Assembly (NCBI GenBank): GCA_021740785.1
Contig: JAIOZI010000015.1
Coordinates: 1 to 64,000, forward strand
Length of the DNA stretch: 64,000 bases
Source: Melioribacteraceae bacterium
GTDB lineage: Bacteria; Bacteroidota; Ignavibacteria; Ignavibacteriales; Melioribacteraceae
Reading direction: 5' to 3'
Below the pieces are notes generated by a model, which worked only from the letters and a program-made list of their open reading frames with translations, ran no database searches and was not told the DNA's origin. Of this stretch, positions 57,924 through 62,741 are shown piece by piece; positions within the stretch are counted from its first letter, which is position 1; every line of letters starts with the position of its first letter. The translations under genes and the position numbers were made by a program.

Positions 57924-58274
57924 TTATTTTATTTCCATTTTCGAGTTTTCTTTATTAACAAATACCAAAACCGGTTTGTGTTGTTTTGCTTCATCAGGAG
58001 TATAGTTTGCATAACTTGCAATTATTACCAAATCACCCTTATGAACCAATCTCGCAGCAGCTCCATTTAAACTCATCTCTCCTTTTTTACCGGGTATTAC
58101 ATAAGTCGAAAATCTTTCACCATTATTGATATTATAAATATCTACCTTCTCAAATTCGTGAAGACTGGCTTCTTTTATCAATTCTGTATCAATTGCAATT
58201 GATCCTTCATAATTCAAATCAGAATCTGTTACAGTTGCCCTGTGAATTTTTGATTTAAGCAAAGTAACCTGCAT
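57924..58274 (-). CDS. panD: Aspartate 1-decarboxylase PanD
   Basis: A 116-aa pyruvoyl enzyme making beta-alanine for pantothenate. The self-cleavage site is Gly24-Ser25 in YEGSIAID, with Lys9 and the NGAAARL stretch conserved. It is the last gene of the pantothenate/CoA operon and starts directly after the coaX stop. Confidence 0.96.
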
Positions 58275-59063
58275 TTAAACCTCTATTACTTGTTTTACAT
58301 TCATATTTATTGCAAGATTAAGTCCCTGCAGAACTAAGGTTGGAATTATTACATCAAATAATCCGGCATCTTCGAATAATCTTGAAAACCCGCCTGTTCC
58401 GATTATCAAAGGTTTTTCATCGTTGAAAGCTTCATCAGTAATTCTTTTTTCAAGTTCTTTAATCATTCCTATCTGTCCATAATATAAACCCGATTGTATT
58501 GATTCAACAGTTGATCTGCCGACTACTTCATCAACTCTTTTTATTTCAACGACAGGTAATTGCGATGTGCTTTTCTCAAGTGTCTCCATTGAAATTCTAA
58601 TGCCGGGTAGAATGATGCCTCCCAGATATTCCTTTTGTTTTGAAATCACACAGAAAGTAGTAGCTGTCCCGAAATCGACAACTATTAAATTTTTGTCCGG
58701 GTATAGATTAGTCGCTGCAATTGCATTTGCAATCCTATCGGTTCCAACCTCAAGCGGATTCCGGTATTTAATTTTCAACCCGGTCTTTACTCCCGGTTTT
58801 AAAATAAAGGGATCGATATTAAAATATTTCAAACAACCATTTCGTAAAGAATGCACTTTGTCGGGAACAACACTGCAGATTGATACCTGCTTAATTGATA
58901 CCGGGTCGACTCCATTTTCCCTTAATACACTTTTTAAGAAAATTCCAATTTCATCTGATGAAAACTGCTCGCGGGATGTTTTTCTAAATTGCAGAGTTAA
59001 CTTATTTGCATTAAATACGCCGCCGTAAATTTGTGTGTTGCCTACATCAAGACATAAAATCAT
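58275..59063 (-). CDS. coaX: Type III pantothenate kinase CoaX
   Basis: A 262-aa ASKHA-fold kinase phosphorylating pantothenate, the first step to CoA. It shows LDVGNTQI (5-12), [22 protein letters not shown] and [15 protein letters not shown]. No biotin-ligase domain is fused. It lies 28 bp after coaBC. Confidence 0.95.
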
Positions 59064-59091: not shown

Positions 59092-60312
59092 TCATTTATT
59101 TTTTTGTATTAGTCCAACTATTTTATTACCCAGCTCTCCGGATGTTTTAACGGTATCTATTAAAAATTTTTCCTTGTAGATTCCGAAAGATGTTTGTGTG
59201 TTATTCATCCTGCTTTTTAAGTCATTATGAATTATATAATCGGATTTGGATTGCCGGAACTGTTTTTCGATAACCGGTTCAATATTACCGCCGTTAGTAA
59301 ACTTGAATGAGAACAGCAATAGATTTTTATTAATCGAATAATCTTTAATGCGATCAACTATTTTATAATTCGGTTTCATAACTAAAGAAATTTCTTCAAC
59401 TGAGGATGTTATTTTTTCTTTAAGCGGTATCGATTTTGTTTCTCCATTTAGTATTAGCTGGGACACGGAAAAATCGCTTACTGCTGCGAGATGAATAACT
59501 GCATTAAAATTATTTTTCAGTTCACTTTGAATGAGTGAGTCAAGGTTTCTAAAATCAGAAAACTCAATTTTTCTGCAAACTCCGGCGGGTAAAGCAGCAT
59601 CAATGGAGTGGAGATAAGTAATATCATAACCGGATTTAATCAGAGCATCCGCAATCACAGCGCCTGTTTTGCCTGTACTTAAGTTCGATAAATACCTGAC
59701 ACCATCAATATTTTCCCTGGTTCCCCCGGATGTAATTAACACTTTGATTCCGTTTGAATGCAGCATTGTATTTTGTTTTAACAGTGATTCAATCCGCTCG
59801 AAAATCATATCAGGATCAAGTAGTTTACCTTTACCTATATCTCCGCATGCCAAATGTCCTGAAGCAGTAGGTAAAATTATAACTCCCCAAGATCTTAGTT
59901 TATTCAGAGCATCAGTCGTAGCCGGATGTTGATACATATTTGTATTCATTGCCGGTGCGATCAAATATGGTTTGCTCCAATCATGTGCAAGGAACAATGA
60001 AGTCAATAAATTATCGCCAATGCCGGCTGATAATTTATTAATTGTATTTGCTGAAGCAGGCGCTAGCACAACAATATCAGCCCACTTTACCAGGTTAATA
60101 TGACTCATCATTTCGCCATCGGCAAATGAATCTGTCATGACAGGTTTCCCGGTTAATCCTTCCAAAGTTGCCTTCCCGATAAATCTCAGGGCGGATTCTG
60201 TTGCAACAGTTTGCACTTCAAAACCGTTTTGAACTAATTTCGAAATTAGATATGCGCTTTTATAAGCAGCGATCGATCCGCTGATTTTTAATAGGATTTT
60301 ATTTTTTAACAT
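59092..60312 (-). CDS. coaBC: Bifunctional CoaBC (phosphopantothenoylcysteine synthetase/decarboxylase)
   Basis: A 406-aa fusion. The N-terminal flavin decarboxylase CoaC has SGSIAAYKS, the active-site His in [12 protein letters not shown], and [13 protein letters not shown]. The C-terminal CoaB synthetase has [23 protein letters not shown]. It converts 4'-phosphopantothenate plus cysteine to 4'-phosphopantetheine in two steps. Its start overlaps the panC end by 14 bp. Confidence 0.95.
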
Positions 60313-61060
60313 TATCTATCAACCTCACTCTACCAAGGTGAACAGCGCCGAATCTCCTTCCGTTCATATCTTCGATGTAATCAACCTTGAAGCCGGCATA
60401 ATTTAATTCACTCTTGATCTCTTCTATTGGAAAATCCGATTTTAACAACTCCGGAAATTTTACCGCAATTTTTCTTTCTTCCGGGGTCAACATTTCATTT
60501 CGCGAACTGTGTGCAAGTCCGTCTGCAGCACGAATAGTTTGACAAGGAATTATTTCCGTTTTTATAAAAAATGCTTCCGCCATTCCTTTAATCAAAAGAT
60601 ATTGCTGGTAGTCCTTCTCACCGAAATATGCATTATCCGCTTCAATAATATTCAGCAGTTTCATTACCACAGTAAGTACGCCGTCAAAGTGCCCTGGTCG
60701 GTGCTTACCGCAAAGTTTCCCGCTCAAATTATTCTCAATAACTTTATAGTTATAATTATCGTTATAAATTTCTTCATAGCCGGGATAAAATATGAAATCA
60801 ACATTACGGCTTTTCAACAATTCTAAATCCTTATCAAATGTTTTCGGATAATTCTGCAAATCACTTTTATCGTTGAATTGTGTTGGATTGATAAAAATGC
60901 TGAACACTGTAATTCTATTTTCGAGTACACTTCGTTCCACAAGTGAAAGATGACCTTCATGGAGCGCGCCCATTGTCGGAACAAATCCAATGGTTGTTTC
61001 CTTAAGATCATTCTTTAATAATGATTTCCATTCCGGAACATTCTTGATAATCTGAATCAT
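60299..61060 (-). CDS. panC: Pantothenate synthetase PanC
   Basis: A 253-aa ligase joining pantoate and beta-alanine with ATP. The HIGH-type motif is in MGALHEGH (30-37), with FINPTQF, the KLCGKHRPGHFDGV stretch, GEKDYQQ, and SSRNEMLTPEER as the KMSKS-like segment. It begins immediately after the panB stop. Confidence 0.96.
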   Translation of the reverse strand: MIQIIKNVPEWKSLLKNDLKETTIGFVPTMGALHEGHLSLVERSVLENRITVFSIFINPTQFNDKSDLQNYPKTFDKDLELLKSRNVDFIFYPGYEEIYNDNYNYKVIENNLSGKLCGKHRPGHFDGVLTVVMKLLNIIEADNAYFGEKDYQQYLLIKGMAEAFFIKTEIIPCQTIRAADGLAHSSRNEMLTPEERKIAVKFPELLKSDFPIEEIKSELNYAGFKVDYIEDMNGRRFGAVHLGRVRLIDNVKK

Positions 61061-61849
61061 TTAATAACTCTCTTTACCATTAGGAAATTTTGAATTTTTC
61101 ACATCATCATCATATTGATTAACAGCATCTTTTATTAATTGAAATCCATTGAGATATTTTCTCAGGAATTTCGGTTTAAATTCGTCATCCATTCCCAGCA
61201 AATCATGTAATACCAGAACCTGGCCTGACGTATGCGGTCCCGCCCCGATTCCAATTGTTGGAATCGATATTATTTCCGTAATATTTCTTGCCAACTCCGC
61301 CGGTACGAGTTCAAGAACAACTGAAAAACAACCGGCTTCCTCCAATAGCTTGGCGTCATTTATAATTTTCTGTGCCGCACCATTTTCTTTACCCTGCAGT
61401 TTGAATCCCCCAAGCTGATTCACCGATTGCGGGGTTAATCCGAGATGTCCCATAACCGGAACACCCGATTTCACCAGGTATTCAATCGATTCCAGGTTTC
61501 CATCGGCTCCTTCGATTTTAACGGCGTTTGCTCCCGCTTTCATGATTGTATCAACATTTTCAACTAGTTGATCGATTCCTTTTTTATGCGCGAGAAACGG
61601 CATATCCCCGATTATCAGTTTGTTTTTTATTCCGCGTTTTACTGCATTAATGTGGAAAGCCATCATTTCAATATCTGCGTTAACTGTTGTTTCATAGCCA
61701 TGCATCACCATTGCTGCGCTGTCGCCGACAAGCACAGCATCGATGTTTGTTTTATCAAGAATTTTTGCCGACCAATAATCATAACAGGTTACCACCGAAA
61801 TTTTCTTATTGTCATTCTTCATTTTTGCAAATTCTTTTACACTGTTCAT
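61061..61849 (-). CDS. panB: Ketopantoate hydroxymethyltransferase PanB
   Basis: Start set at 61849 (MNSVKEFAKM) because its ATG forms an ATGA overlap with the stop of the upstream DUF2520 gene; 61861 is the alternative. The 262-aa product has VTCYDYWSAKI, LVGDSAAMVMHGYETT, IGDMPFLA, VKIEGA, GHLGLTPQ and IGIGAGPHTSGQVLVLHDLLG. It adds a hydroxymethyl group to ketoisovalerate, giving ketopantoate. Confidence 0.96.
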   Translation of the reverse strand: MNSVKEFAKMKNDNKKISVVTCYDYWSAKILDKTNIDAVLVGDSAAMVMHGYETTVNADIEMMAFHINAVKRGIKNKLIIGDMPFLAHKKGIDQLVENVDTIMKAGANAVKIEGADGNLESIEYLVKSGVPVMGHLGLTPQSVNQLGGFKLQGKENGAAQKIINDAKLLEEAGCFSVVLELVPAELARNITEIISIPTIGIGAGPHTSGQVLVLHDLLGMDDEFKPKFLRKYLNGFQLIKDAVNQYDDDVKNSKFPNGKESY

Positions 61850-62562
61850 CGCTTCTTCCAATCTTTGTATTGTATATCCTGTGTTTCCAAAAATGCTTCG
61901 TATACATTTTTGAACGCATCATCATTCAAAGTATTTAAATGCTTTTCAATCGTTTCTATATCTCCCCGGGTTATTGGTCCGGTTACATGATTTGAATTAT
62001 CAAAGGAATTGCGCAGAATATTTTCCAAATATAGATGTGAAATTGATGCCGGTAACCCTATTTCATTTTCCAGAACGTCATAATACTTTTTAAGTAAAAT
62101 GGATGTGAAGTTACCGCTCATGCTCGTCCATGTATGATACAACTGCCGTTTATTACCGTCAATTTCAAAGTGCGGATTTTGTAATTCCGGGAATAGTTGA
62201 TTAAAAGGGATTCTGCCCTTATCTGTAATGAACGGGACCTTTTTATAAGTATCAAGATCATAAAGGTTATGAGAAAATGTCATTAATGGATGAGCACATT
62301 CGGCGATGGCGGTTGATAAAATTCCTGAACAATGAATCCATGTGGTGTTTGTGTTATAATGTTGATTAATGAACGGAATGATTTGTGCATCGTTAATAAG
62401 CAGTAATGTCTTAATTGATTTGCTGATTAATTCATCAACTGAAAAATTGAGTGTTCTGTACCAATGAACATACTCTACATCAAGTAATTCAAAATAATAT
62501 TTGAAATGTTTTGCTAATCTTCCGTTACCGATAATGAGGTAAGGAAATTTACGGTTTTGCAT
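61846..62562 (-). CDS. Rossmann/DUF2520 oxidoreductase-like protein, candidate ketopantoate reductase
   Basis: A 238-aa protein. The N-terminal part has a nucleotide-binding start (YLIIGNGRLAKHFKYYFE, about 8-25). The C-terminal part (about 115-220) resembles the DUF2520 helical domain, with the HTWTSMSGNFTSILL segment and the NHVTGPITRGD signature. It is the first gene of the operon and overlaps panB by ATGA. Every other pantothenate enzyme is present, but panE is not, so this protein stands where the ketopantoate-to-pantoate reductase would be. The overall fold is that of 6-phosphogluconate-dehydrogenase-like reductases, as in PanE. The enzymatic role is inference. Confidence 0.8.
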   Translation of the reverse strand: MQNRKFPYLIIGNGRLAKHFKYYFELLDVEYVHWYRTLNFSVDELISKSIKTLLLINDAQIIPFINQHYNTNTTWIHCSGILSTAIAECAHPLMTFSHNLYDLDTYKKVPFITDKGRIPFNQLFPELQNPHFEIDGNKRQLYHTWTSMSGNFTSILLKKYYDVLENEIGLPASISHLYLENILRNSFDNSNHVTGPITRGDIETIEKHLNTLNDDAFKNVYEAFLETQDIQYKDWKKR

Positions 62563-62741
62563 CGGTACCTGTCCTTTGGATCAAGTCCTATCAATTAAAG
62601 AATTATTGTGATGAATTAAGTAACCTTTCCCAAAGGGAATCGATTCAAAATTCAATGCAAATATACTAATTTGATATAACGTAATGAAAGTCAAATATTT
62701 TATTCGTAACTTTAACCCGCTATAACGTTAATAACAAAAAA

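Follow-up and report, generated by a model that had tools for sequence, protein, structure and literature searches.

A pantothenate operon headed by a DUF2520 gene

Ketopantoate reductase shows up as a pathway hole in many genomes, and the locus described here raises the question of which protein performs this step where the surrounding pathway genes are in place. The window, by which we mean the whole analysed stretch of 64,000 nt from a Melioribacteraceae bacterium, carries a six-gene run on the minus strand from 62562 to 57924, in the order DUF2520-panB-panC-coaBC-coaX-panD, without any PanE-type gene. A preliminary description had listed these pantothenate and coenzyme A genes, observed that a gene for ketopantoate reduction was missing and proposed the leading DUF2520 protein in its place. 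NCBIfam equivalogs confirmed the gene content, namely panB (ketopantoate hydroxymethyltransferase; 61061–61849; TIGR00222, 318.6 bits), panC (pantoate--beta-alanine ligase, 253 aa; 60299–61060; TIGR00018, 251.3 bits), coaBC (59092–60312; TIGR00521, 289.5 bits), coaX (type III pantothenate kinase; 58275–59063; NF009855, 327.9 bits) and panD (aspartate 1-decarboxylase; 57924–58274; TIGR00223, 151.6 bits). The first gene (61846–62562) begins with ATG and encodes 238 aa. Its position at the head of the operon was upheld by the open reading frames, as was its ATGA overlap with panB (61849–61846), in which a possible panB ATG (61849–61847) meets the DUF2520 stop codon. The panC and coaBC genes also overlap, and the remaining junctions are tight.

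The only Pfam match in the 238-aa protein was PF10728 (DUF2520) at residues 120–223 (E=1.2e-15; 57.8 bits against a cut-off of 25). The Rossmann half had no Pfam match and was recognized through its predicted fold and alignment to the structure 3d1l. No NCBIfam model matched any of the five short-type DUF2520 proteins scanned, a group defined below, and PHROGs matches for DUF2520 were below significance. Considering the reading frame, the Pfam domain, the AlphaFold2 model and the adjacency to panB together with the results below, we regard this gene as a PanG-type (DUF2520) ketopantoate reductase, with a probability of roughly 0.86.

PanE and IlvC in the genome

The whole genome was searched (4.85 Mb, 99.88 % complete, 115 contigs, not closed). 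Two circumstances named in the preliminary description as counting against its proposal, a true panE elsewhere in the genome and coverage of the step by IlvC, found no support: neither ApbA_C (the PanE C-domain) nor KARI_C (the IlvC C-domain) was detected anywhere in the genome, and the same models gave matches in 8 (ApbA_C) and 14 (KARI_C) of 14 control genomes. DUF2520 was present in a single copy. Four weak ApbA N-domain matches were rejected as PanE candidates, their reading frames being tentatively identified, by reading the sequences rather than by family search, as GpsA, a UDP-glucose dehydrogenase, a 3-hydroxybutyryl-CoA dehydrogenase and a FadJ-like protein. Since the genome has no IlvC, ketoisovalerate would have to be drawn from valine in this organism.

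Relationship to known ketopantoate reductases

A DUF2520 protein of Corynebacterium ulceribovis has been described as homologous to EF1861 of E. faecalis and FTT1388 of Francisella, the latter being the Francisella PanG of Miller et al. 2013 (PMC4572677), and genome reconstructions give PanE and PanG as alternatives (PMC6593275). Francisella PanG, with homologues in EF1861 and in Clostridioides difficile, is a DUF2520-type oxidoreductase that replaces PanE (PMC4572677), as the protein studied here probably does. The 238-aa protein has the C-terminal DUF2520 domain and an N-terminal Rossmann NAD(P) domain (by predicted fold, with G12xG14 invariant), and it occurs where ketopantoate reduction is otherwise missing, both in this genome and in the relatives counted below. 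The short lineage to which it belongs is therefore probably part of the PanG family, an assignment resting on the shared domain and the published statement (PMC4572677). As DUF2520 and PanG have been equated in print, the replacement is of a known kind and not a new reductase class. We would class the enzyme as a short-type branch of the DUF2520/PanG reductases already known; what is newer is the conserved cassette with its leader, described below. What separates the short lineage from Francisella PanG is its tie by genomic context to panB and to a leader RNA. The name itself is used in two senses: B. subtilis YkpB, for which the same reaction is proposed, is also called PanG, but it is a PanE paralogue in the orthologous group of YlbQ and not a DUF2520 protein (PMC11487621), so that this usage clashes with that for the Francisella enzyme (PMC4572677).

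PanE/ApbA proteins (TIGR00745, PF02558 + PF08546) share the proposed reaction and the plan of a Rossmann domain followed by a helical domain, but we rejected membership of the 238-aa protein in this family. Pfam gave no ApbA_C match up to E=10 in the protein, and none was found in 42 members of its lineage. Whole-chain homology was absent, as hhalign against PanE aligned only 30 columns, covering the nucleotide motif, with a probability of 21 %; within this profile alignment, which spans 30 residues, the invariant W-x-K and the Ser/Asp/Glu signature of PanE had no counterpart.

AlphaFold2, run with 42 sequences, produced a confident two-domain model (pLDDT 94.4). The best fold matches were the DUF2520 structures 3d1l (Z 16.7) and 2i76 (Z 15.9), followed by prephenate dehydrogenases and imine reductases (IRED), and Foldseek also ranked ketol-acid reductoisomerases (KARI) and pyrroline-5-carboxylate reductases (P5CR) highly. 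PDB matches past the DUF2520 structures indicate the superfamily only, and the absence of PanE among the matches listed is no evidence either way. By its fold, the protein would thus fall in the broad 6-phosphogluconate-dehydrogenase-like class of NAD(P)-dependent reductases. DUF2520 was the sole curated domain found in all members of the lineage (42/42).

Long-type DUF2520 proteins, represented by those of Bacteroidota (3d1l, BF3122) and by TM1727 (2i76), have most of the same residues. Invariant or nearly so in both types are G12, G14, D58, H77, S79, G80, H91, P92, Y142, H143, N151, T194-G195-P196, R199 and D201, and the motifs D58, H77-x-S-G, H91-P, Y142-H143, N151 and TGPxxRxD are common to most of the long proteins. 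The long type differs in its length (about 300 aa against about 240 aa), in its separate branch, with the two types on opposite sides of one branch of the tree (SH-aLRT 96), and in lacking both the leader RNA and a pan neighbourhood, as pan genes occurred within about 6 kb at 0 of 19 long-type loci (L092–L111 minus L096, for which the region had been cut around panB instead of DUF2520).

In the proposed reaction, 2-dehydropantoate, the product of PanB, would be reduced to D-pantoate with NADPH through the N-terminal Rossmann domain and the helical DUF2520 domain, and pantoate would pass to PanC. Residues H77, H91, Y142, H143, N151 and T194-G-P-x-x-R199 belong to a putative catalytic cluster. 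R36, an arginine after strand 2 that 95 % of short-type proteins share, would fit a preference for NADPH. H143 and N151 lie on one helix, eight residues apart. In E. coli PanE, the Lys and an Asn are likewise placed on one helix eight residues apart, a likeness that we take as a lead only.

A pantothenate cassette found across phyla

The preliminary description had called for a comparison of gene neighbourhoods. We built a profile from eight short-type proteins, taking no account of context, and scanned 84,980 species genomes, which yielded 45 loci. At all 44 loci with readable downstream DNA, the short-type DUF2520 gene stood directly before panB on the same strand. The next gene was panC wherever the contig allowed, except at locus L064, where a panC-coaBC-coaX-panD group is divergent and upstream of DUF2520. 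Carriage of coaX, panD and coaBC varied between cassettes, leaving panB and panC as the constant partners. Going by the names of the MAG records, the hosts belong to at least eight phyla: Ignavibacteriota, Bacteroidota, Fidelibacterota (Neomarinimicrobiota), Acidobacteriota, Myxococcota, Bdellovibrionota, Pseudomonadota and Lentisphaerota. One such record, titled Rickettsia typhi (L074), carries the cassette, and its protein groups with that of a Kapaibacterium MAG (SH-aLRT 98); from this grouping, the label is probably wrong. The PanC of the window is compact, with 253 aa against a model of 283 positions and a shortened C-terminal part, and cassette PanC genes at other loci also encode about 250 aa.

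PanB proteins from cassettes, together with those from loci that have the leader but no DUF2520 gene, formed one clade, distinct from the PanB otherwise usual in the class (SH-aLRT 100). This clade, the split between short and long types and the constant adjacency suggest that the cassette has been inherited as a unit and has probably also been transferred between lineages as one.

Among 273 genomes of the same class, 12 had a leader of the cassette type immediately followed by panB, the DUF2520 gene that would separate them being absent (L113, L117–L121, L123–L125, L127, L128, L130, L132). All 12 encode IlvC, and one also encodes PanE. As they are scattered over the PanB tree in several distinct branches, DUF2520 has probably been lost from the cassette lineage more than once. 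As IlvC is able to reduce ketopantoate (PMC11487621), the losses fit replacement by IlvC, a pattern that is weak and not significant alone because most relatives have IlvC.

Co-occurrence with panB

The 273 genomes, each at least 95 % complete, also served for phylogenetic profiles. With one very weak match discounted, panB was present in 242. Of these, 221 carried DUF2520, compared with 4 of the 31 genomes that lack panB (odds ratio 71, Fisher p 3e-20, uncorrected for descent). Where panB was present and both PanE and IlvC were absent, 124 of 129 genomes carried DUF2520 (counts uncorrected for phylogeny). Conversely, IlvC was found in 16 of the 21 panB genomes without DUF2520 versus 64 of the 221 with it (Fisher p 3e-5). 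The five panB genomes in which DUF2520, PanE and IlvC were all absent remained so when re-searched at E<=10; for four of them, DUF2520 is present in other sampled genomes of the genus, which makes assembly gaps a likely cause.

Contrasts within genera agreed with the tie between DUF2520 and panB in g2, g32, g36 and g130 and disagreed in g77, where two genomes keep DUF2520 but have no panB. In the window's own family, panB is present in all 12 genomes with DUF2520, IlvC in each of the 11 genomes that have panB but not DUF2520, and the 17 genomes that lack panB lack DUF2520 as well. The phylogenetic profiles fit a role for DUF2520 as ketopantoate reductase. It would fill 124 of 129 such holes in this one class, and confirmation of its activity could lead to the re-annotation of a large family that as yet has no name.

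Alternative explanations

The proposal that the DUF2520 protein is the missing reductase thus gains support from the absence of PanE and IlvC, the invariable adjacency to panB and the profiles, and three other explanations were weighed against it. The protein might instead be an NAD(P)-binding accessory or regulator, for example one that binds the leader RNA, with pantoate made by an unrelated promiscuous reductase. Its gene is indeed linked to a leader of a plan that has been suggested to bind a dimeric protein (Weinberg et al., PMC2864571); however, the leader persists in 12 genomes without the DUF2520 gene, where the RNA must play its role without this protein, and long-type DUF2520 tracks panB without linkage or leader. 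We consider this explanation very unlikely, and the two that follow slightly less likely still. One is that a true PanE or IlvC lies in an assembly gap or has diverged too far for detection. An unclosed assembly of 115 contigs leaves room for this, but the genome is 99.88 % complete, the models that found nothing here match the controls as well as PanE or IlvC in many relatives, and the adjacency of the cassette genes across phyla is independent of this one assembly.

The other is that the protein reduces a different alpha-keto or imine compound of a neighbouring pathway and owes its place in the operon to some other reason. Its fold class is broad enough for prephenate dehydrogenase, imine reductase, P5C reductase and ketol-acid reductoisomerase all to score, yet its constant partners are panB and panC, and not coaBC, coaX or panD, and it is absent from the cassette lineage only in IlvC-positive genomes.

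A pan-like leader RNA

Upstream of the DUF2520 gene, the string GGACUUGAUC-N-GACAGGUACC is conserved across phyla irrespective of any coding role. It belongs to a leader with two hairpins in tandem, which in the window occupies 62564–62653 on the minus strand (71.4 bits with our RNA model R1, whose training set includes the window). The string forms the 3' hairpin (62564–62588, minus strand; GGACUUG-A-UCC-AAA-GGA-CAGGU-A-CC), whose general fold is GG-ACUUG-A-UC(C)...(G)GA-CAGGU-A-CC, with two adenosines bulging from the stem. This hairpin was found in 41 of the 44 leaders examined, the window included. In its main helix, 99 % of alignment cells pair (33 distinct sequences), with compensatory change in two pairs. 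About 30 bases further upstream, the 5' hairpin (62620–62646, minus strand) repeats this plan with two bulged As and shows compensatory, both-side changes in 8 of 10 pairs (24 sequences). Over both hairpins, 95 % of cells pair, versus 31–44 % when the alignment is slid (24 sequences). Folded as a single sequence, the window leader has no exceptional energy (z -1.39), and the case for structure rests on covariation.

Of 20 held-out cassette leaders, R1 found 16 at their proper position, and it gave no match in the 20 regions L092–L111. It matched in 20 of the 273 genomes, 19 times directly before DUF2520-panB or panB. Re-searching of 16 loci (17 matches) gave 94.5 % of cells paired and 12 pairs compensated, in an alignment fitted to the model; most of these 17 matches are leader-only loci, at which the conserved string no longer heads a long ORF. 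In the locus collection, leaders are represented by the window, L047–L090 and L112–L132. Among them, R1 matches L131 (genome G170) weakly (E 0.0026), and no pan gene was detected in the 3 kb around this match.

Tandem stems with two bulged As each, upstream of panB operons, are the plan of the pan motif (Weinberg et al., PMC2864571; RF01749). At E<=10, however, the Rfam model RF01749 matched neither the genome nor any of four leaders tested individually, and at the gathering threshold it matched none of 11 loci, with a B. subtilis control matching. We therefore call the leader pan-like, as it has the plan of the pan motif yet is not matched by the pan model. It differs from pan RNA in its taxa and in a start codon that often lies within a hairpin loop, and it extends pan-type RNA to phyla where Rfam finds none.

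The apical loop (hairpin position 10–13) holds the first usable start codon in about 30 of 41 leaders. A UGA in the 5' strand of the hairpin usually closes the upstream frame, which leaves few alternative starts. The remaining ten or so, the window among them, have no start in the loop but an ATG within about ten bases past the hairpin; the start codon of the window (62562–62560) comes one base after the 3' hairpin. Folding of the hairpin, perhaps together with a protein or ligand bound to it, may hide the start or the ribosome site and so repress the reductase and the operon behind it; the leader would then exert its control on translation. Since the leader shows covariation and mostly holds the start codon in its hairpin, regulation of coenzyme A synthesis can be tested directly. 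To the broadest proposal, that of a mobile, phylum-crossing pantothenate cassette under translational control by a previously unmodelled leader with the start usually in its loop, and of short and long DUF2520 proteins as the main unannotated ketopantoate reductases of the class, we would give somewhat less than even odds. One genome of the collection (G264) carries two panB-panC loci (L132 and L118), each with its own leader.
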